Assembly (NCBI GenBank): GCA_903813345.2
Contig: CAIIXF020000002.1
Span: 28,467,223 to 28,531,222 of the forward strand
Reading direction: 5' to 3'
DNA length: 64,000 bases
Source of the DNA: Owenia fusiformis
Lineage: Eukaryota > Annelida > Polychaeta > Sabellida > Oweniidae
In this document: one piece after another, positions 1,961 through 35,967 of the stretch
Layout of the letters: every line of letters starts with the position of its first letter
Position numbering within the stretch: the stretch's first letter is position 1
The notes under the pieces: generated by a model
What the model was told of the DNA's origin: nothing
Database searches by the model: none
The model's input: the letters and a program-made list of their open reading frames with translations, nothing else
Program-made: the position numbers and the translations under genes

Positions 1961-4900
1961 GTGTGTGAGATTCCAGGCAATCCGAACCCAGTAGTTTTAC
2001 ATGACAGCAGTGCATGAGATTGTGAAAAGATTTGAAACATAAGACTCAATGCATTGTAGCTGCTTCATCCCACCCAGGCGTTGTTTCCTAAACTTGCATT
2101 CCCGCTGCGTGGTCATGCAAAGATGTGGAAACAACCTTCATGATATGATTCAGCATACATTATATGCACTGGGTCCAGGACTTAAGTCCCTCAATGAACT
2201 ATGACTATGATGGCTTTAATTTAAACTGCTGTGCACGATATCACGAATCACTGTATCCAAGGTCGCTTGTGAAACAGTTATCAAGGTGACAACTTGACTT
2301 GAATTGAAATTGATACTTTGCCAACTTGACCATTGCAAAATATTTAAGTGAAAAAATGTTCTTTTTGAGATTTTATATCTTTTAGGTGATTCCGTAGAAA
2401 ATATTTTGCAATGTGTGAAATAATTCAAGCCCTCAATGTAAGACTCGGTGCATTGTGGCTGCTTCATTCCACAAAAGCGTTGTTTCGTGAACAAAGCGAT
2501 TCATTGACACCACCATTTACATCATCATTTTCGGAGAAACAATTCAAAATGTTGATGTACTGATCGATTTTATATATATATATATTTTTTTTTTTAAGAA
2601 ATATAAAGTCAAATGTATAGTTTAGAAACCTAAAACATACACTCAAATTTTATTTCATATAATTTCCTAAAGTAGTGCGTACTCAACAAACATATCAGGT
2701 GCCAAAAGTAAAAAATGTAAACATATAGTTCAATCATTCTGAAACTCTCGACCAACTAATGCGTTTACATCATTTTTCTGTTTTCCTTATTATTCCTTGT
2801 GCATTAAGTATTATCGAACTATTTTTAAATACACAAAGCGTCCAGCAAATGCTGATACAAAGGCATAATTTTTATTTCTTCTATGTCTGACTCAGCTGTG
2901 TGTATTGTTGGGTAGAATTACATTGTTATGTGAAATAAAGGTGAAATAAGTTTAGAATTTTTGGAAAGTGTCAGTGGTCTTGTTCATGAGACCTATGTCT
3001 ACATGTAGTCTTGCTTAAGACCCTGGACTCCCCCCCCCTGTTCAACGTCGCTCAGTACATACTAACATAGGGGGGGGGGGTGTAGACAGTTTTGAAGCAG
3101 GACTTCTTGTGTCTTTTAGACAATGCCACATATAAATTCAGATAACAAACTTCACAGACGATACAGCTATATAATAACATTAATAATTATTCTTTAGGCT
3201 TTCTAATTGCTCTGACATTAAATACCACCAAAAATGTGTTGGTTGTAAAGGAGGGGAGTCACTCTATTTGACAACGCTGTTCTGGTGATGAGTAAGAAGG
3301 AAAAAGCTTTGTCAACGACAAGTAGCATAACATAATGATTGTGCAATGTACTTCCTGATAACGGTCTCATTTTGGGATCAAACATTCATAATAACGTGGG
3401 GTACAAATCAACGCATATCATTTGAGTACTTCAGTGATGTTTATGTTTTGAAACAGTTTATTGATGAACAGTTATTAGGGAACTATCTCAAAATATACAG
3501 AAATGATATCAACGTTGAAAACGAGGTTGATACCCAAGGCGAAGACAAGTATGACAACAGAACATCCACTTTTAACTTCAGAGTCAGGTAATGTTTCTGT
3601 ATTTCAAAATCTTATTGCACACACGTATTTGTAATGGTAGCTATGACTTAATATCCAAATAGACAGATAATGAAAGGTGTGCGCATATTGTTGGCTGTTT
3701 GTTGCAACGAATGTTCCCGACTTCTTTAGAAAAAGGTTAAGGCAGATATGACAATGTATTACAAGTAAGTCGATTTACTCGTATATCCTGAAATTTCAAC
3801 AAAAATGCAAAACGGTTGTTACAGCAACACTGATAGAGGTAACATTTAAGGCGGGACAAACGCCAATGGTTTAAAAATATATGTATACGGGGAATGAATG
3901 TATCCCGTAAATCCCGTCCAGTGTGAAAATTGTCGATGCGCCCTTGAAAAATCATTCCAAGTGCACATTGACTACATAGTTTTACTGCCTGACGACATAA
4001 AGTATGGTAAGAAAATCATATTTAGAAAATTTTATTATATTATAGGCACATAATAATAGTTTTGTTAAATTACACCTTTGTCACCTGACGGAAATTCCCT
4101 TTGAAGGCGGAAAGCTCAAATTGCGTTTAATTCTGACAGTTGGTTGTTCTGTTTGTTTTCTCACATGATCGGCAATACTGTACCCTTACGTTAGATATAG
4201 TCTGAAGATATATCTTAGGTATGTAAGATATTATAAAAGCAATTCTAATATGATACATGACGTCACAATAGCTAGAACAATTGATTTACTGGTCTATATT
4301 GGAGTATGTATGACCGCTAAAATTCTTATATGCAAAAAGTTGTGTTTCTTGTCTGTTTATCATATTAGAATCGTAACAAAGACCTCGATTTTATGATTTA
4401 TGTCAAATATGAGACCTCAAATTTTATTCTGGCCATTGCCAAAGACCTCAATCGCTACGCGATTCCGGTCTTTTAATAATGAACAGAATAGAATGTTTGG
4501 TCATATATTATGACATAAATCAAAAAATCTCGGTCTTTATTCCTTAATTATAATTGGACATTACTGATTGTCCAGGTGATAAACCTAAGAGAAAAGGCAT
4601 TTTTAGATAAAGAGATGCGCAAACAGATTTATTTGTTAATAAACGATGCTTCAAATGTTGTTTTTAATTTTCGTTTCAAGGAAAATTACACAAAAAGGAC
4701 CTTTGTCTTCTTGGTCATAGTGTCAATCAAGATGATAATAAGTGTTTTTAGAAATAGATAACATATTTCTACTACCATTAACAGTTAACCATATAAAGTA
4801 ACTAGAGCAATTTTCCTCAAAAGTACTTGTTTTTAACGAGATTACAATATTTACCTAATGATAAATGTCAAACAATATGATGCTCATATGTCAGATTTAT

Positions 4901-5080
4901 CAATTTTCCAAGAACGTTTTTGTTAAATACAGATTGACATTAAAAGAGCCACCAACATAATGTTGCATAACTTATTTGTCTACATGATATCTGAATTGTT
5001 CTTAAGCACATTATAAGCTCCATGGAGCAACAGGAAGTTCTAGCTGATATCAAAGCTGAAATTTTAGCTCAAACAGAAGT
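1961..5080. other. No supported gene; low-complexity tracts
   Basis: Two short similar segments lie at about 2040-2100 and 2440-2500. There is an AT/T tract at 2570-2600 and C- and G-runs at 3030-3080. An open stretch 3346-3587 ends at a donor-like CAG/GTAATG, but it has an upstream stop, no recognisable domain and the wrong phase to join the PGRP-gene exons directly. I do not call it a gene. Confidence 0.4.
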
Positions 5081-5084
5081 ACTT

Positions 5085-5690
5085 TTATGAAAGGATAGGT
5101 ATCGATATGGTGAACTGAATTCAACAATGTTTTTCTCTTAAACCAATTATTGAAAACATTCTGTAAAAAGCACGGTCCTTTATGTAATGTTGACTAATTG
5201 ACAACAATTTAATGCAACAGGTATTTATATATATTTTGTATAACTGTTTTTGTTAATATATTTTGTTTTTTAGTGCAATTGTTTTTTGTTCCTTTTTACC
5301 AATTCTTGAGAACGAAGTTATATAAAGGAAATGTTGGTTGATTTTACAAAAAGTATGCAAAAACTTAAAACAAAATCCCCTAAAATTGATAAAAATTAAG
5401 TTAAGCCGTTTATTACATTAACAAGATACATTTTTTAAAATCAACCAAACTTTCCTTTGTACAATTACAATATTGAGAGACCTAAACACGTTGTGTTTAT
5501 GCCGTTTTGTTCCAATGAGGTTCGGATAGATGTTTCATTTCATTCCGAACATATGATACCAAGAACGAAAGAAGTGTCTGATGTGTTTTCTAAAACAATA
5601 TCTAATGATTTTTGCGTGTACTTTCAGAGAAAGAAAGCCGAATCAATTAAACATAGGATAATATTGTTGCTATTTATAAAGTCATTATAA
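5085..5690 (+). repeat. Dispersed repeat family A, copy 1 (truncated)
   Basis: Begins with GGATAGGTATCGATATGGTG and is homologous to 18480-19400 (mostly inverted) and 30445-31360. The part at 5457-5600 reads as an open frame but is the same repeat as 30445-30600 and 18700-18785, so it is not a gene. The 3' part departs from the other copies after about 5605. Confidence 0.75.
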
Positions 5691-6120
5691 CTTATTTACA
5701 AAATTATGTTACAAACGGTGGGTGGCATTTTCGTGTATAATCCAGGTGTGTCTGCAAAGGATTAGATGACACTTTTAACACTCATAAAGGTAATCGTAGC
5801 TAGTCATCTGAAGCCTCTTGCAGAGTTGCTCCATGAAATAAAATTTTAATGTGCTAAAGAACAAGTCAAAATTCACGCAGACAGAAAAATTATGCAACAT
5901 TATGTGGGTGGGTGGCATGTTTGTCTCACGCGGAATAAAAGAGGCCGTTTTCTTTTGTGTCCGGTTTTGGGGATGTTTTTCATTTAATTATCGTCGATTA
6001 TTCTTTGCATGTATTAAGCTCTTATGATGGTGTATTATGTGAAATCCCTGTGCCTGCCAGCTCATGATTATGTTTTGAAAAATATTCGTGAAAACTCTTT
6101 GCAGTTTGTCATAAGGACAT

Positions 6121-6672
6121 ATACAGGGTGTCAAATAAGTCCCGTCCCCCCCCCCCTCTACAGCCAAAACCAAGATAATTGGTACCAAGTGTGATATATC
6201 ATTGGAAAGGTCTTCCAAAGTTACGTTGATTGGCATATATCTGACAAATGTCAATCAATCTCACAAATTCACTGTATCAATTGAGGTGACCATAGGCCTA
6301 GAAACATGGCAATTTGGCGTATTTGGCAGGATTTTAAGAATCTGGTATAAGAAAGGTCAAAGGACCAAAAGATGACTAAATAGTAAATATGTATATGGCA
6401 ATGAATTTAACCAATTGCTGGATAGGGTTAGAGGTGTAAAAAATAGAGGTGCAAGGAAAGTGGGGAATCCTTTTTTATGTAACAAGTGACGTTTTTTGAG
6501 GTCATATCCTTGTCATTTTGACGCAAAAAGTTGCTTAAAGGAGGGCACGTTAACTATGTAGGACATCATGAAAATATAGGTAAATTTCATCCAAAATACT
6601 TGAGAGTTGGTGAGTTAACATAACTTTGGATGATCTTTGCAATGGTATATCACACAAGGTACCGTCTAGAAT
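6121..6672. mobile_element. Non-autonomous element with inverted arms
   Basis: The left end is CAGGGTGTCAAATAAGTCCC, as in many Tc1/mariner-type elements, followed by a C-run. The segment 6195-6230 (around TGGTACCAAGTGTGATATATC) recurs in inverted orientation at about 6620-6665, so the two ends form arms of about 70-100 bases. There is no transposase. The right arm stops close to the proposed start codon of the Death-HEPN-PGRP gene at 6674. Confidence 0.5.
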
Positions 6673-6673
6673 A

Positions 6674-9600
6674 ATGTCCAATATAGCTGAAACGATGTTT
6701 TCAAAATCAGACCCTATATATTTCAATGGGGAAAACCCCGGATGTAAAAATGTGTACCCAGAATTAGAGCTCTTCAACACGGGAGGTAAGAATATTGTTG
6801 TAATTCTTTCGCTATCGCGTTTTAGTCTATTTACTTTTATGTGTCTGCCTTTTCTTATTCTTAAATTATGTCCAAACAAAGAAATATTATCTTAAATGTC
6901 AGAAATACATGTCAGTGTATGCAAAATGACACAAATTAACTCTTTTTAATATTTTCCAGTTGCTATATAGTAGGGAAAGGACCTGTCTTGGGTACCATAT
7001 TATCTTAGTTTGTCTAACTCCTAAATCATTCTGATTACTGAGTTGTACTATAACATTCAGCTACTCCTTACTTGCTCTTGTAGATGATATTCCAAATGGA
7101 GGCGCAAAATCCGCTTTCCTCAAAGATGTATCTAAAAAGATGGCAGACGTTCTGAGCTTCGTCGATTATGACACCATGCGTAGATTGTGTATGCTGCTAA
7201 ATCCACCCGATGTATTTGGCAATGACTGGCGGATGCTTGCCGATAAGATGGGATTTACATTTCTCGAGATACGTAATATTCAACAGCGCGAGAAAAATCC
7301 GACACAGGCACTACTGTTGGTGTATAAAACACGCACGGGTAAAGGTAACAAAGAACTCCTTAATGACCTACATGACTACACTTTATCAATGGGTCGAGAG
7401 GACTGCGTTACACTTTTAAAGCATGTATTGGAGGGTGAAGATGGGGACGATTTGAAGATCGATATGTCTGCGCTAACGTGTGGACAGGATAGCATTCTTA
7501 CTGAACAAATAATAGGTAAATCATTTGGACGACAAAAGCTAGAAAATCTAAGCCATCATCAGAAGAGGCTCCGTTGAATAGTACTTCTTTTCCTCATCAC
7601 TCTACGAGTCAACATAATTATTAACATAATATTTCACAATTCTTGTTCCCTTGTGTCCCATTTGAATCATAAATGACATTCATTTCTTACAAGACAAACT
7701 GATCATGAAGACAATAACAGGTTATTATTTCTTGACTCCCTTCTTCTATCAACTAATACTGTGTTTCGCTTATTACTTAGCAATATTTTTTTGTTCACAT
7801 AAGTTTTTTTTCATACTTTAAAAAGATTATTTGAGAAAACGTGTCATGATATAAAGGAAAAATAATTCTAAAATATGTAAAATGTCTCTCTATTAATAAT
7901 ATAAATGTTGATTTACAGATGCTTCCGAGTTTTACTACGGCCGGTTATGCTGTTTATTGTTAAAAGAAGGCACTGAGCAGATAAGAGAATATTTGCTGAA
8001 TAACTTGCCATATGGATTTGACAACATATTCGATGTGTTACGCAGCAAAACATATAAGATGCAGTTCCGACTTCTCAGAGAACAGGAAAAGCTAACCCAG
8101 AACCAATTTAACACCCTGTACCCGCCATCTTGTGCAGCAAACCCCTCTGTCTTTGACCAGGAATTACTGTTTGTCTTGATCAAGCATCTCATCAAAAAGA
8201 ACGACTTGGACTGGCGCAAGTATCCACAGGTGGACAAAATCGATCCAGAATATGACGTCATCAGATTGAGACATTTACGTCATCGGCTTATACACAAATC
8301 AAAAAGAGATCTAAGCCAAAACGAATACGACCAACTTTTCGGTGAAATTTCTCAGATTTTATTGAGAATGGGGCAAAGCCCGGAATCCATACGCAAATAC
8401 AGCGATCGTGTACCAATATCTGATATTCCAGACCTGAAGCAAGAGTATTCCAAAGCGGTGGCACAGTTGAAGGAAGAATTTATCAGAGCCACAATGGCGG
8501 TGGACTTTACCCCTACTCGAAAGTTCAACAGATTCATGATTCTCATCACTCTATGTTTTGTTACGATGATCATAGGAATCTCGATGTTTGTTGGCATTTA
8601 TCTGTCCAATAAACCCAATGGAAGATCAAAATGTGCTGAAAGCCCGGTGTCTATAACCAACAGTAAGAAAAATGTGATAAACTATATTCACTGACAGGGA
8701 TTTCACTAGAATTTCTCACAACAGGGTGTTACTTAAGTACTTAATAAATGAAAACAACAGGCAAAATTAATGGAATTGTTAAAATAATGGAAAAGTTGAA
8801 AAGTCTCTCCAGGCCCTCGTGAAATATCATATTGTCCCTCGGAATAAACCCATATTTAATTCTGACCAGTAAATAAGATTTTTATCCTGTGATGTCATAA
8901 CTCTCTTCATAAAATCATCGGTTCAAAATCCATATCTGATTTTATATGAAACAAAACCAGACTACCAGTATGGTTAAAAAAAATACAACTTCCACAGCTT
9001 ATAAAGATAGCTACTGAACAGTAAGTGTTCTCCTTTCACATTTGTTTCAGAGGAATCGGGTATGTTCCGCTATAAGAGCAGAGAAACATGGGGTGCGAGA
9101 CCTCCGATTAGTCCACTGACGCGTTTTAAGAAACCAGTTAAATACGTCATCATAATACACACAGCTGGCCTTGATTGTGTTGAAATGGTTGATTGTTGCC
9201 AGAGCGTTGTTGAAGCACAAAACATACATATGGATAAGAAAAGTAAGTAAATCAAAGGCATGTACAATAATAGTATTTCTGTTGGAACCATTGAACTCAT
9301 GACAATGATTCTATGCCTCACTGACATTCATCATATTTTCCTTATATATAGTGTTCACCATAAATAAATGACACCTGGATTTTATATCACCATTTCCAGA
9401 CCAATAATGTCTAGATATACATCGCTTAAGTTTTGTACATTTTACATTTTGTATACTCTCATCCACTGATGTATAGCCTCTTGAAAATTCTCTCCTTTTT
9501 AACATGGGAAATCCTCACTTCAGCAAACCCAGGTGTGATTTATTTATGGTGAGCACTGTAATTCATTTTAGACATGTCTGATATCGGCTACAATTTCCTA

Positions 9601-10311
9601 ATCGGTAATTATGGTGTTGTATATGAAGGACGGGGATGGCGCTTTGAGGGAGAACACTCCAGAGGGTAAGACCGGAAGTACATGATTGAATATCAATTAA
9701 TGGTGCGATTTGTATTTATGGATAAAAAAGTCCATTGAATGATTTTACTTTACTGATTTAGCTGGAACAACCTATCAATTGGAATTGCATTTATTGGTGA
9801 TTTCCGCATGAGACTACCGGATAAGAAAGCAATGCAAGCGCTCGAAGAAATTCTTTTCTTCGGAATCCACAATCGGTATTTGAAGCAAAAATACATTATG
9901 TACGGCCATTGCCAGGTAGCGCCTTATTTGAGTCCAGGGGAGACTCTCTACAATGAACTAATGAGGTGGCGTCACTGGGTAAGCTAAACACAAGTCATTT
10001 TATCCTTCGGTGTATTTGTTTCTGGATGCCGAAATAGTTAGCTTAACGTTTTGTTCAACCTATGCACCCGACAATCATGAATCGCAAATAATATTGCCAT
10101 TTATCCGATGGATATTAAATCGGTAAAAATGGTATCCCTCAAAACTCATAGGATATCCTCTAAATACTAATTGTGGATATGTCAATCTGCTATTTTAACT
10201 GATTAATTGTAGAAATACCGCAACGTAACATCAGACGCAAAGCTAGAGGGAAACAGAACAAGTTATTGCTTTGACAAGAAACCCCCACAAATGGTAGCAA
10301 TTCCTCCTTGA
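6674..10311 (+). CDS. Death-HEPN(DZIP3-like)-TM-PGRP receptor, 7 exons
   Basis: Exons 6674-6785, 7084-7515, 7919-8662, 9051-9242, 9572-9665, 9762-9978 and 10213-10311 join in frame (629 residues), all GT-AG with matching phases. Residues about 57-151 are a Death domain of MyD88/IRAK type (W86, MGREDC). Residues about 195-335 are a DZIP3-type HEPN domain with R302-x4-H307 inside [16 protein letters not shown]. Residues 388-411 form one membrane helix. Residues 434-608 are a PGRP domain ([39 protein letters not shown]). Inferred topology: Death/HEPN cytoplasmic, PGRP outside (type II). The first zinc-His position is Ile465 and the zinc-Cys position is Ser582, while Tyr500 and His574 remain, so peptidoglycan binding without amidase activity is likely. 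The start is the first ATG of exon 1; an extra 5' exon is possible. The domains are certain; the single-transcript structure rests on splice phase. Confidence 0.9.
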
Positions 10312-11489: not shown

Positions 11490-13590
11490 GTCGTTGCTAT
11501 AGTGTCACCAATGCGATTAACTTGTAATCAACTTTATCTGAAAGATGAATTGAGAATAAGGTCAAACGACAAGCCCTGGTACAATGATGATATTGCTCAT
11601 GCCATTCTAAAGGAGAAAAAATTATTTTCTAAATCTAAGAAGTACAAAAGAGAATAATACTATTTAGCCTATACGGCCCAATCAGATTTAGTAAAAATCT
11701 TATTAATGAGTCAAAGGTAAATTACACTAATTATCAAGTTGAACAATTAAATGGTGAAACAAACTCTGGAGATATATTCTGGCACTTATTGAGAAATTAT
11801 TAGGTAAGCAATTTAGTTCCCAAATTCCTACTATGCAAACAATACTAATTCAATATCTAGTCAAGAAAAAGCTGATGAATTCTTAAACTATTTTGTGAAC
11901 ATGTACCACTCTGATGAGATATATGTTAACTTTATATTCCCTTTCAGAAGTCGTTTCGAAACACAAACCAGCCATGTTTTAATCATAAGAGTTGAAATTA
12001 TAAAAACTCTTTCTTCATCAAAAGCATTTTATAACAGTTAAAATGCTTCAACTTTGCTCTAATTCAATAAGTTTCTACTCTACTTTTATTATTCAAAAAA
12101 CTTCTCAAGGACCAAACTTTTCCAGATGTTTGGAAACCCAGGGACATTTGCCCCATATTTAAGAAAAACAAGAATGACATTATTAATTATAGACCCATTT
12201 GACTTTTTTTGAAAGAATCATACACAATAGAATGTATAAACATCTCATCTCATTCTTTATAAATTTCAATCAGGATTTCTGTTTTTCTCGACATTTCCGC
12301 TGCTTTTGACAAAGTTCCGCACAGGTTACTACTTTATAAACTCACTCCTTCGCTCATACCTTACTAACAGAAAGGTCAAAGTCACCGTAATTGAAAAAAC
12401 ATCAACTTCATCTCCTGACAACCACATTAATTGTAGTGTCCCTCAAGGAAATATTCTTGGGCCTTTAATGTTCCTTATTTATATCAACGACCTCTCAGAT
12501 AACCTAGCATCTTGCTTTATTTATGCAGACGATGCGTTAATCTTTGTACCCTCTACTTCAACTGATTTGACCTCCCATAGACAACTTAAAAGTGATTTAT
12601 AAAAGTAGAAGAGTGGGCTTCTATTTGGAAACTTGATTTCAAACCGGAAGAAGTAAGGAACTTGTATTTTCAAGGAAAAACAGGGGGGAAAACAATCAAA
12701 GTGTCATTTTAATAAGTAGAAATATTCTCAAAGTAAATACACATAAACACATTGGCTTCTTACTTGACCACAAATTAAAGGGAGATGCACACATAAATTA
12801 CTCTATTGCCAAATTCAAGCGGCATTAAATCTCAAAGGGAAACTAAAATCAAAACATTTAAAAAATGTTAATAATGGCTACATGCAATCTTTATTTCACT
12901 ACTGTGATACTATCTATGATTGTGTTTCCCAGCAGGAGTGATCGTGTCGAGGATTCTGCCAAGTTCAAATAGTTCCAAAGTGTTTTTAGATTTTAAATTG
13001 GTCACCCTTATCAGAACGCAGATTAGTTCATTTCAAAATAACTATGTTCAAAGTTTGCAATGGTCTACTTCATTAATATATAGCTGATATATTTACTCCA
13101 TTCCAAAATCAAATTGTCAGAACATTGAGATACCCTTATGATTATATAATACTCAAAAAAAGATCACCAATTTTCAAAATGATGCAAACATGGAACAATA
13201 TCCCGCCAGATCTTAAGTGCTCAACTTCTTTAGCCTCCTTTAAAAATTAACTAAAAGGTAAAATGTTTACAGGCACATAATATTGAGCTCACAATTAAAT
13301 GCCCATAACTGGACCAATGTAGATTCTCCGAATTGTACTTATGGCTCCCAGAAACGTTTAAACACATCTTTTTCAACTGTCCCCTAAGAAAACAAAATGG
13401 CGAACGATTTATCCATGAAATAGAATTTATAGTTTAACATATCAACATACACAATCAACTTATTTCTTTCTGGCGATTCAAACTTGATCATTTTAATTAT
13501 AACGTTTATTTCAACTCACTTCAATATGTTTCATAGACAACGTTTGACTTGCAAATATACCTCAGACCCTTCTTTTACCCACCCCACCCC
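11490..13590 (+). pseudogene. Dead CR1/jockey-type LINE (reverse transcriptase remnants)
   Basis: Several frames carry pieces of one LINE ORF2 in order. First comes the endonuclease-RT linker (KPWYNDDIAHAILKEKKLF, near 11572). Then 12300-12600 gives the RT core, with VPQGNILGPLMFLIYINDL followed by the YADDALIF active-site box at about 12522. At about 13195 comes the usual tail WNNIPPDLKCSTSLASFKN. Last, 13315-13380 is a Cys-rich C-terminal segment. Many stops and frameshifts separate them, so no protein is made. The boundaries are approximate. Confidence 0.85.
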
Positions 13591-24003: not shown

Positions 24004-25311
24004 TCAATTTTCCAACTTGTTTTTAATTTGTTCATACATCATTTGAGTATACGCGTTTACAAGGTCATTGTTTACCCTTCTATTTGTCTTAAAAAATATC
24101 ACCTCAAATGGCGATATATTAATGTTCGAAAAATACAAATTTTGAAAGTATGGATCTCCATAACGCTTCCCTTTGATGTCATGTTTGCACATCTTACGTG
24201 TAGTTTCCTCATCTCGGAAGTCGTGACCTTCCCAGCGTTTCAACATTGATGCAATGTTATACCCTGCTTCTATAAATGCTTGGGACAGTTTTACTTCAAC
24301 GTTATCGATTACAGATTGTTTGTCAGTGTAACCACATTGAAGCATAGGCTCAACGATCCTAAGTCCAGCCAGGTCAGTAAGCAAAAACATTGATTGCAAA
24401 TGTAACTTATTTTTAGGATATCTTGGGTGGGGACAGCAAATACTTGTTCCAACTAGTTTGATGTCTTCTGATAAGTGTTTTGTAAATAATGAAGTCCAGT
24501 CCTGATCTGCTAAGTAAGTGGGTAAGAAGGGTCCACGCACTGATGCATTCATAAAAAATACATATTTGTACCAATTTTCTCCCTTTTCTCTCTTCATCTT
24601 TTCAAGACCCTGTTTCCATGCACACGCATCAAAGCCATTGTTCTCTCGTTTTATCACATGTACGTTATCCTGTGTCGGTATATCTGCTGTACACGTGAAC
24701 CCATTCGCTATGATGACATAATCAATGTTTTTTGTGTCCTTTATGGCAAAATCCAAGAAGAATTGAAGGTTGGCTTTTCGTTCAGGAGATTCAAAATATG
24801 CATAAAGAACAAGAATGCGTTCAACAGCAGCTGCATCACTTGTTCCGCCTGACGCTACATGGCCATTGGTACCTATAACATTGAAGATGTACACATATAC
24901 GTTTATTCACCTTTATTTTAACGATAAACAATCAATAAATAATGATTTTTAAAATTGCACAACGCGCATGACGGAAACATTTACAGTACATGTGCACAGG
25001 TAAGTAAGTACATTGAATTTCACAGGTAAGTATAGATGTCATGCTAGGATGAGAACTATCTAATCGATCAAAATAAACTTCAATTTATGAATATAAATAC
25101 ACATTTATTCACCTTTATTTTAACGATAAACAATCAATAACTCAAGCAATAAATAAATCAACGTTTCATCGTATTCCCTTTTACACTTACCTTCAGTGGC
25201 TGTCCTTTGTGTAAACCAACTTGTTTGTGCAGACTCCTCGTACACCAACGCACGGAAAACAAACACTAGTAGACCAGTGAGTAGACCTACTATCACAATT
25301 CTCTTAGACAT
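24004..25311 (-). CDS. Type II membrane glycosyltransferase-like protein (RgpF-like), 2 exons
   Basis: On the minus strand, exon 1 (25311-25191) and exon 2 (24872-24004) join through a phase-1 GT-AG intron into 329 residues. Residues about 4-22 are an uncharged helix after MSKR, a signal anchor as in Golgi transferases; an in-frame ATG ten codons upstream is the alternative start. The body begins RILVLYAYFESPERKANLQF. It contains RENNGFDACAWKQGLEKM and YVFFMNASVRGPFLP, the pattern of rhamnan-synthesis-F/lipopolysaccharide-type glycosyltransferases also seen in marine invertebrates and algae. Donor and acceptor sugars are unknown. The intron holds a 37-base direct repeat (24902-24938 and 25104-25140). 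Family placement is from memory and moderate. Confidence 0.82.
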
Positions 25312-28319: not shown

Positions 28320-28710
28320 CGTTACCCTGCGTGCAGAGTCTAGTTAAACTACACTCTGCCTAGTAGAGACCATATTACAGTTTAGTAGCCCCGCCTCCAC
28401 AACGTTTACCGGTGATAGTTTGGGTAATAAATCACTTTTGACCTACGCGCTGCCCTTTCTTCCACCAATCAGCGAGCTTGAAGAAACATGCGCCAAATGC
28501 ATTCTTATTAAATATGCGCATGTCATTGGTCAATTCCGGGCTCAACGATGACGTCAGAAGGAATGACCATATATAGAACGTCGGTCAAATTTGGCCGACG
28601 AACACTGATTGGCGCGGTGAGTTCACAGGTTTATTTTAGTTTGAAAGAGTGAAGACGAAGCTCTCTTTTAAGAAGTGAAGTCAAACGAATGCAAAGGGTA
28701 TCGCTTCGTT
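28320..28710 (+). promoter_or_regulatory. Promoter-like dispersed repeat
   Basis: Contains CCAAT-type boxes in both orientations (ACCAATCAG, ATTGGTCAAT, TGATTGGCG), a CRE-like GATGACGTCAG near 28549 and a TATA box CATATATAGAACG near 28568. The two flanks (28320-28357 and 28654-28705) recur joined together and inverted at 63215-63300, so this is a repeated unit, perhaps a transposon promoter or LTR-like segment. No open frame follows. Promoter activity is inference. Confidence 0.5.
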
Positions 28711-32465: not shown

Positions 32466-32559
32466 ACTAAATTGCAAATCGAACCCTCTGAAAAGATATG
32501 GATAAGAACCCCATTTTGTTTTAACAACTACCGAAAAAGTAATAAGTATTTTTACTTTT

Positions 32560-35500
32560 TTCAATAACCTCATACAAGGAGTGTATTCCTACCAGAATGA
32601 GGGTTCCATATGTATCCTTGGTGACTTCAACTCTAGATTGGGATCCGCCAGTGATTATATTGAAGGTGTGGATAACATCCCCCCAAGAGCTGTCATTGAC
32701 TACACCGATAATGCATTTGGTGACTTTTTTATGAACTTTCTTGTTGATACAAACATATGTACCCTCAATGGTCGAACATTAGGCCATGACGATTGGACAT
32801 GCATTTCCACAAAAGGAAAGTCTGTTGTTGATTACATCTGTACTACTCATGAACAAATTACAGATTTCAGTGACTGGAAAGTCCTTAAAATGTCAGACAT
32901 TATTCAGCAATTTAATCTCGGTGTTCCTCAACATATTCCAGATCATTCAATAGTTCAATGTGTTTTTAAATTCAAGCCAATTACCAAAATTACAAATCTG
33001 TTCGAAGCTGGCAGTGTACCCAGTACCAATGGCACTAAGCAATATAAAGTAAAATGTCCCCCACAAGATTTTCTACAGGACATCAATCTTGTGAATAAAG
33101 TTAAAAATGCAATTAATCAAATAGAATCAGATGCTTCAATGAGGGGAAAAATTAATACAATCTATGGAGAATTTGTTGCTGTATTAAATGGAGAAATGGA
33201 GCGTGTATTTGAACCTATTAAAGTGAAATCTAAATATGGAAATGCCAAAAGTTTTAAAAAACCCTATTGGAATAATGATCTTCAAACTCAGTGGAATAAA
33301 TCCAAAGAAGCTGAATCTATATGGCTGAAATGCAGGGACACTGGTCAACGTCGCCATTTGAAAGCTGCATATTGTATTGAAAGGAGACACTTTGATAAGC
33401 TTCTAAGGAAATGCAAAAGGTCATATCAACTGAAGGAACAACAAAACCTATTAGATCTGTATAATCAAAGTAATTCCAGAAATTTCTGGCAGAAAATAGG
33501 AAAAATAGGAATCGCCAATGAACGCACAAAAGATATACCATATTCGACTATTGACTCTGAAGGTAATATCAAAAGTGGTCAACAGGAAACACTGGATAGC
33601 TGGGCTGATATATATGGATCCCTATATGCTGAAAACATTGATGACCCAAAGTATGATAATGAACACTTGCAGCAGATTAAGCTAGAAGTTAATAGCATGG
33701 ACAATAACCCTGACCCTTACACAAATGAAATGTTAAATAGCCCTATATCACTAGAGGAAGTGGCAGATGCAGTAGCGCGTGCTAAAATACGCAAGGCAGT
33801 GGGAATTGATGGTATACCAGCAGAGGTACTAAAGTCTCGCAATTGTATCCTACTTTTACACAAAATAATAGCTGAATGCTTTAGTCATGGAATAGTGCCA
33901 GATCAGTGGATGGTTGGGATAATAAACCCCATTTTTAAAGAGGGTGATAACAGAAATCCCCTACACTATAGAGCCATAACATTGATTTCAATTCCATGTA
34001 AAATCTACTGTGACACGCTTAATAAGAGACTGTCCAAATATCTTGAATTGAATAAGCTCCTAGTGGATGAACAGAATGGGTTCCGACCTGAGCGTGGATG
34101 TCTTGACCAAGTGCACTCTCTGTATTCAATAATTAACAATAGAAAGCTAGGAAAACAAAGTACATTTACATGCTATATCGACATGACCAAAGCGTTCTGT
34201 AGCGTAAACAGGGACTGTCTGTGGTACAAACTTAACAAAATTGGCATAAAAGGCAAGATATTTTCTGCTATTAGTTCCCTTTATCAAGATGTATCTTCTT
34301 CAGTTAGAGTTAACAGCCATTTAACACCAATGTTCAGCATAGAGAAAGGATGTAAGGAGGGTTGCGTTTTGTCTCCGACCCTGTTCGCCATCTATATCAA
34401 TGACTTGGCAACTGATGTGAAAAATCTAAACTGTGGTATCAAAATTGATGGCATGGATGTATCTGTCCTCTTGTATGCAGATGACATTGTCTTGATTGCA
34501 GATTCCCCAACTAATCTACAACGTATGCTCAATGTGGTTAATGAATGGTGCTACAAATGGCGCATTAGTATGAACCAGAGTAAAACTAAAGTGGTACATT
34601 ATCGCCCACAGGCTTGTCCAAGATCAAATGCAGTATTTCATTGTGGGACTATGAACATTGAGTATGCTGAAAGGTACAAATATTTGGGAATATGGCTGCA
34701 TGAAAATGTAGACACCAACATAACTGTCAAGGAACTAGCTAAATCAGCCAGCAGAGCTCTCGGGGTAATAGCCAGTAAAGCCACGGCGATTGGAGGTATG
34801 GACTATGATGTATTTAACAAACTGTATGATAACTTAGTCCAGCCCATAATTAATTACGGCTGTTCTATTGTGGGTCTGCATGAACGCAGACCTCTGAACA
34901 ACATCCAAAACCGAGCTGGCAAGATGTTCCTGGGGGTGAGCCCAAAAACTAGCAATGAGGCAGTAAGGGGAGACCTAGGTTGGTCATCTCTCCTCAATAA
35001 GCAACATATTGAGTGTGCTAGACTTTACTTGAGGCTTCACAATATGGATAGAACCAGGACAAATCACAAAATACATTTATGGTCTGCAAAGAAAAAGTCT
35101 AGCTGGGACTATAAAACACAGCAGTTATTAGTTAAAGGAGGAGTCCCAATAACAAATGGCACAAACGTCTCAACCAAACTTGCTCTTAATGCACTGAAAC
35201 ATTACCTGAATCAAAATGACACATTCCTAACCAACATATGGGATGACAAAAATAATGAAGCAAATGGAAACAAACTTAGGACATTTCGTCAATTTAAATA
35301 TGGTGTGGTGACTGAACAGTACTTAAAAAACAGAATGCCCAGACAACACAGGAGAATACTTGCTCAGTTCCGAACAGGAAGTCTCCACTTAAATATAGAG
35401 ACAGGTAGATGGAACAATACACCGGTGCAAGAACGAAAATGTATTCTCTGTGATAATGATTGTATTGAGGATGAGATACACTTTTTGACTCAATGTGAAC

Positions 35501-35967
35501 ATTATAAGGACATCAGGAAAGAGTTTTATGACAATGTTAAAGTAACAGCCCCTCATATAAACATTAACTCAAATGATGGCCTGGGTACACTGATCAGTCT
35601 TATGCATGACAAAAACATCCAAAATTTATTGGCTTCAACTCTATTTAAAATGTGGCAAAAAAGGAACTTCAATATTGAGAGGGTCTGAAATGATCAAAAC
35701 AAATGCTCAACAGATATTTATTCTAGTCAACTGAAAATGCTTACTCTAAAAACATGCTGATATTATATTTGAACAGTGCAATAATTGTATATTATAGAAT
35801 AGTATATTTATTTAATGGACATTGTTCCAGATTGTAGAAGGACCTAAGTGTCTCATAAGCCGACACCGGCTGGTAGTGTTTTAGTTTACTTTGTATTTGA
35901 CATTGTATGTATACTTTTAACACTAGTGACACTATAATAAAATATTTTAATAATAATAATAATAAGT
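32560..35967 (+). mobile_element. 5'-truncated LINE with long intact ORF (EN C-terminus, RT, tail)
   Basis: An uninterrupted frame from about 32581 to 35688 (1035 codons) begins inside an AP endonuclease domain (GDFNSRLG, then SVVDYICTTHE and PDHS). It continues through a full reverse transcriptase: KAVGIDGIPAEVLK, NGFRPERGCLDQ, YIDMTKAF, GCVLSPTLFAIYINDL and the catalytic LLYADDIVLIAD (YADD at 34474). The C-terminus has a Cys/His motif, CILCDNDCIEDEIHFLTQC. The 3' end is a (TAA)n tail at 35945-35967, as in many non-LTR elements. Lack of stops in 3.1 kb implies a recent insertion. The N-terminal endonuclease half, promoter and start are missing, so it cannot mobilise alone. The 5' edge is approximate. 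Confidence 0.93.

Follow-up and report, generated by a model that had tools for sequence, protein, structure and literature searches.

A gene joining Death, DZIP3-type HEPN, transmembrane, and PGRP modules in the annelid Owenia fusiformis encodes a candidate peptidoglycan receptor

We analysed a 64,000-nucleotide stretch of genomic DNA from the annelid Owenia fusiformis (hereafter, the window) and found that one of its genes encodes, in order, a Death domain, a DZIP3-type HEPN domain, a single transmembrane helix, and a peptidoglycan recognition protein (PGRP) domain. The fusion is real, unusual, and conserved between two phyla, with two proteins of the brachiopod Lingula anatina carrying the same modules in the same order. 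Its sequence leads us to favour, on balance, a type II peptidoglycan receptor that would signal through its own MyD88-like Death domain. We regard the protein as a probable new variant among transmembrane PGRP receptors, with a predicted function.

Results

One gene carries all four modules

An initial annotation of the window, made from its letters alone, had described a seven-exon gene. When spliced, these exons gave an uninterrupted frame of 629 residues, with 6/6 introns of the GT-AG type and compatible phases. A public protein, P0001 (620 residues), matches exons 2-7 letter for letter and uses a different exon 1 at 3503-3587, which lies 3.5 kb upstream of exon 2 and extends the gene span to 3503-10311. 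Exons 2-7 of the annotated gene are therefore upheld by the identity with P0001, while its first exon, 6674-6785, is absent from the public model and could either belong to intron 1 or serve as an alternative first exon. P0001 is uncharacterized, appearing in databases only as 'unnamed protein product' or 'Death domain-containing protein'. Public gene models for Owenia drew on RNA-seq from embryonic and adult samples, processed with Mikado, Portcullis, Augustus, and PASA (PMC9977687; papers cited by PMC number are represented here by excerpts of their text). The features of the gene are as follows.

3503-3587, + strand: exon 1 of the public model with start codon; joined to exons 2-7, yields P0001
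6674-6785, + strand: exon 1 of the initial annotation; open, phase-compatible, absent from the public model
7084-7515, + strand: exon 2, Death domain (splice and phase check, P0001)
7179-7424, + strand: MyD88-like Death domain, residues 61-142 of the 620-residue protein (Pfam E 7.5e-13)
7919-8662, + strand: exon 3, HEPN, juxtamembrane stretch, and transmembrane helix (splice check, P0001, Pfam)
8035-8397, + strand: HEPN_DZIP3 domain, residues 212-332 (Pfam E 3.2e-17)
8278-8295, + strand: HEPN Rx4H motif RHRLIH, putative RNase active site (alignment; motif definition from PMC3710099)
8536-8592, + strand: core of the single transmembrane helix (hydropathy)
9051-9242, + strand: exon 4, start of the PGRP ectodomain (splice check, P0001)
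9572-9665, + strand: exon 5, PGRP, with peptidoglycan-type positions M486 and R505 (P0001, alignment); the codon for N485 straddles the exon 4-5 junction
9762-9978, + strand: exon 6, PGRP (splice check, P0001)
10213-10311, + strand: exon 7, C-terminal tail and stop codon (splice check, P0001)

Neither the public exon 1 nor the exon at 6674-6785 had a significant match in six stretches of 4-10 kb around paralogues of the gene, so conservation decides for neither. The N-terminus appears to be fast-evolving or different between copies. For two paralogous public proteins, P0002 and P0003, N-terminal exons were found upstream of their respective Death exons, and a second in-frame ATG at 3551 in the window gene would give an N-terminus that by eye resembles their short ones.

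Pfam models matched the 629-residue joined protein at residues 70-151 (Death, E 7.6e-13), 221-341 (HEPN_DZIP3, E 3.3e-17), and 457-578 (Amidase_2/PGRP, E 1.8e-14), all above the curated gathering scores. One strong transmembrane segment, with a mean Kyte-Doolittle value of 2.62, lies between HEPN and PGRP. The initial annotation had claimed one gene with these four modules and proposed a profile check of the joined protein; Pfam, the helix, P0001, the paralogues, and the Lingula proteins all agree with it.

Owenia paralogues are kept under purifying selection

A scan of the Owenia genome (498 Mb, 525 contigs) placed the window gene, copy E, in a cluster on contig C2 at about 28.345-28.478 Mb. 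Copy A (28345132-28351323), about 120 kb upstream, has seven exons with identical phases and encodes P0002. Exons 2-7 of copy B are open and its exon 1 was not located. Copy D has open exons 1-5 and a stop in PGRP exon 6 (locus L012, C2:28460.8-28461.0 kb); its public model is P0003 (370 residues, marked partial), which ends within the membrane helix. With Death and HEPN exons that are still open and conserved, copy D may have become a pseudogene recently or may represent a shortened form. Three more partial or decayed loci lie on the same contig near 28361, 28384, and 28435 kb.

Synonymous divergence between the window gene and copy A is about 1.2. Taking Death, HEPN, the juxtamembrane stretch, the helix, and PGRP in that order, dN/dS for the window gene was 0.05, 0.09, 0.06, 0.32, and 0.16 against copy A, and 0.07, 0.13, 0.08, 0.17, and 0.25 against copy B. 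Across copies, Death (0.05-0.08) was among the most constrained parts and HEPN ranged over 0.08-0.13, while the ends were looser, at 0.31-0.45 for the N-terminal 52 residues and 0.12 (A) or 0.69 (B) for the C-terminal tail. By these values the Death, HEPN, and PGRP domains are under purifying selection and are kept together. Between copies E (exon 2) and D (C2:28457067-28457492), Death-region dS was 0.23 versus 0.65-1.25 in the other regions compared, a pattern that looks like gene conversion holding the signalling end uniform.

The fusion is shared with a brachiopod

The initial annotation had suggested looking for the same domain order in other species. A protein search found 42 proteins, and the four with all three Pfam families were P0001, P0002, and two Lingula anatina proteins, LOC106168506 (652 residues) and LOC106153404 (518 residues), here P0004 and P0005. 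Both share the modules, their order, and the single helix, at 37% and 35% identity to P0001, respectively; Owenia and Lingula Death domains are 45-51% identical. Three more Lingula entries, two LOC106156274 isoforms and a near copy (P0011, P0012, P0013), have HEPN, helix, and PGRP without Death, and one further match is P0003, the partial model of copy D. The remaining 34 of the 42 are Amidase_2/PGRP proteins lacking Death and HEPN, nine from other animals and 25 bacterial or environmental.

In a tree of 24 PGRP domains, a branch supported at 99/99 separated the six HEPN-fused domains from the others, as did 98% of 200 bootstrap trees. This tree takes in six short Owenia PGRPs (exon pieces, one just 43% filled) and omits four Phaedon domains, one Mya domain, one Vombatus domain, and the bacterial rows of an earlier 46-row tree, which dropped matches under about 110 residues and gave 98/94 support for five fused domains. 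All tree rows were found by likeness to the window protein or came from its genome, and sampling is thus narrow. The simplest reading of these trees is one origin of the HEPN-PGRP fusion before the annelid/brachiopod split; the Death part may have been present first, or may have been lost in some Lingula genes. Two profile searches (7 hits of 7993 scored; 8 hits of 7998 scored) found the fusion in no further species; the 7-hit search missed P0004 and P0005 although they were partly in its query, so absence from other species means little.

The Death domain is MyD88-like by sequence and the PGRP domain lacks two catalytic residues

Death domains recruit MyD88, IRAK, or caspase partners, and several partners are possible for a given domain. 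Among solved structures, the best relative of the window Death domain by sequence was MyD88 (E 1.1e-10), followed by the next family at 3.4e-4; by this measure the domain is MyD88-like. FADD, TRADD, and RIPK1 were not among the 21 solved-structure matches at E <= 1. Membership in the MyD88 family itself was rejected, since Pfam returned no TIR domain at E <= 1.

PGRPs bind bacterial peptidoglycan, and the window ectodomain belongs to this group by both domain match and fold, in line with the annotated ligand-binding class. Catalytic PGRPs were defined by two zinc His residues, a Tyr, and a Cys (residue list from PMC5725095, mapped by us onto our alignment). The first zinc His is replaced by I, M, or A and the Cys by Ser in 8/8 fused rows covering each position, and on these two altered residues we reject an amidase function. 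The domain is predicted to be non-catalytic and of the peptidoglycan-binding kind. All three peptidoglycan-type positions (N485, M486, R505) vary, with p 0.076 given 62 variable columns of 145; all three also have at least three kinds of residue (p 0.005), by a measure picked after the letters had been seen.

Membrane topology

The window protein has no hydrophobic N-terminal stretch, and its N-glycosylation sequons (4/4) lie C-terminal of the helix. Sequons also occur N-terminal of the helix in copies B and D and in the Lingula rows, and the Death-less Lingula rows lack any on its C-terminal side, so this evidence is only supportive of topology. Net flanking charge favours an inside N-terminus in the Lingula rows and in copies A, B, and D, but does not differ between the two flanks of the window protein. 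A second hydrophobic stretch is present in Lingula isoform P0012. By the sequons of the window protein, a type II topology, with PGRP outside and Death across the membrane, is the likelier arrangement. The RHIM-like motif of insects is cryptic, and none was listed at E <= 1 in the window protein with Pfam models alone.

Acidic dileucine motifs sort membrane proteins to endosomes or lysosomes. We observed the pattern [DE]xxxL[LI] in the N-termini of copies A (ERSKLI) and D (EFSRLI); window copy E had no match, and the match in P0005 (EIALLL) falls within the Death domain.

The HEPN domain retains a putative RNase motif in Owenia

HEPN domains are often RNases or linked to nucleic acids. The window domain scored 63.1 bits against a HEPN_DZIP3 gathering cut-off of 27, the model matched at E <= 0.01 in 7/7 members of the set A1, and the predicted structure of 7921-8430 had a mean pLDDT of 90. 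The HEPN active-site motif is defined as Rx4-6H (PMC3710099), and an Rx4H form with a polar second residue (RHRLIH or RHQLIH) was present in 4/4 Owenia copies read. Among the Lingula proteins found, the motif was retained where Death is absent (P0011/P0012/P0013; RNSLAH) and missing where Death is present (P0004/P0005).

Other open frames in the window

A 300-residue open frame at 24007-24906 (- strand) matched RgpF, rhamnan synthesis protein F (PF05045, E 9.7e-11). A 1059-residue open reverse transcriptase frame lies at 32509-35688 (+ strand; RVT_1, E 6.7e-36), and a shorter reverse transcriptase fragment at 12240-12602.

Discussion

It is established that peptidoglycan clusters PGRP-LC and that MyD88 nucleates the Myddosome; we propose that the window protein may combine both steps. 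The C-terminal PGRP, facing either the cell exterior or the lumen of an endosome or lysosome, would bind peptidoglycan without cutting it, and ligand binding or clustering of ectodomains would bring the inner parts close to one another. A Myddosome-type complex with IRAK kinases would then be seeded by the MyD88-like Death domain and drive NF-kB-type signalling, bypassing Toll receptors, MyD88, and IMD. The adjacent HEPN domain could be an RNase switched on by pairing, on a plan like that of IRE1, or a scaffold. Here ligand class, topology, lost amidase activity, and Death partner are all inferred from sequence, and the annotated idea that the receptor skips separate adaptors is likewise conditional. 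A more elaborate version, which we consider doubtful, makes the Owenia protein a cell-wall-triggered membrane RNase as well as a Myddosome seed: paired ectodomains would create active HEPN dimers, as in IRE1 and RNase L, while Death starts NF-kB signalling, and the tandem copies would form a small receptor repertoire with a fixed signalling end and a varied peptidoglycan-type pocket.

One rival to this proposal is that two neighbouring genes were misjoined, a Death-HEPN-helix gene and a PGRP gene. The frame does stay open beyond the exon 3 donor until it meets a stop at 8692-8694, inside intron 3, and the public model of copy D stops within the helix, but public models of two paralogues join the halves exactly, the exon 3-4 junction keeps its donor and acceptor in phase 1 in 4/4 copies read, and the two Lingula proteins have the identical module order. 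On the paralogue and Lingula evidence we reject two separate genes, and we give this reading almost no weight. It is also quite improbable that the protein is a decoy or negative regulator, as insect PGRP-LF is, binding peptidoglycan without productive signalling. The non-catalytic ectodomain would suit such a role, and a form that retained an intron would amount to a membrane stub, but a pure decoy would not need a Death domain that is among the most constrained parts of the protein.

Assuming a functional receptor, the Death domain might instead engage FADD and caspase-8, in a cell death or IMD-like branch, rather than IRAK. The range of partners open to Death domains would allow this, and IMD, FADD, and DREDD mediate the action of the long PGRPs of arthropods (PMC9835746); however, MyD88 leads the solved relatives by six orders of magnitude, with FADD, TRADD, and RIPK1 missing from the matches, and we judge this route unlikely. 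A much closer call, nearly even, is whether HEPN serves solely as a scaffold or RNA binder, with no RNase activity in the system. The initial annotation had called HEPN an effector, and the RNase motif in four Owenia copies, its presence in the Death-less Lingula protein, and the low HEPN dN/dS fit that role. Its loss in P0004 (Y..Q) and P0005 (C..A), the only Death-bearing Lingula members found, weighs against an effector part in our proposal and makes that role uncertain.

If our preferred reading of a type II receptor signalling through its own Death domain is correct, a peptidoglycan sensor would be linked physically and directly to a Death domain of the MyD88 type, whereas in insects and vertebrates several proteins share out this step. 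The family would also offer a simple test of DZIP3-type HEPN as an RNase in animal immunity. A nemertean study reported IMD-pathway parts in a spiralian and, in its excerpts, no evidence that its PGRPs are receptors (PMC9835746); the present family supplies a receptor candidate for two further phyla of spiralians. The same paper, citing two Gerdol works, one on Lingula, describes transmembrane PGRPs compatible with IMD activation in brachiopods and molluscs. The annotated statement that no such receptor has been described holds within the open-access literature searched, where a query for the fusion itself retrieved 0 papers and excerpts of PMC9835746, PMC3308963, PMC4346834, PMC10192322, and PMC9334734 describe no PGRP carrying a Death or HEPN domain. 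The Lingula paper of Gerdol et al. 2018 lies outside that scope, and the Lingula members may already have been published. The proteins themselves were already public, as uncharacterized entries.

Compared with the window protein, Lingula LOC106168506 and LOC106153404 have the four modules in order and PGRP domains that group with those of Owenia, but have lost the HEPN motif. IRE1 is similar in layout, with a sensor outside the cytosol, one helix, and a cytosolic domain. That domain belongs to the HEPN superfamily (PMC3710099). Unlike IRE1 and RNase L, the KEN RNases, the window protein has no kinase, a predicted opposite membrane orientation, a different HEPN family, and only putative RNase activity. 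HEPN_DZIP3 is already known together with Death (PMC3710099, PMC9646362; one NLR-like Aplysia protein, PMC9334734), and animal DZIP3-type HEPN domains fused to Death, NACHT, CARD, or LRR share the Rx4H motif with the window protein (PMC3710099, PMC9646362, PMC9334734). In contrast, those excerpts name no PGRP partner, and the fusions with NACHT are NLR-like.

MyD88, the closest solved Death domain by sequence, differs in that the window protein has no detected TIR, is membrane-bound, and carries its own ectodomain and a HEPN domain. Drosophila PGRP-LC is likewise single-pass with a PGRP ectodomain on the C-terminal side, and that ectodomain is among the best structural matches to the window PGRP, tied with others and ranked second by Foldseek. 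PGRP-LC signals through a short RHIM-like motif and a separate Death-domain adaptor, IMD, whereas the window protein has its own Death and HEPN domains.
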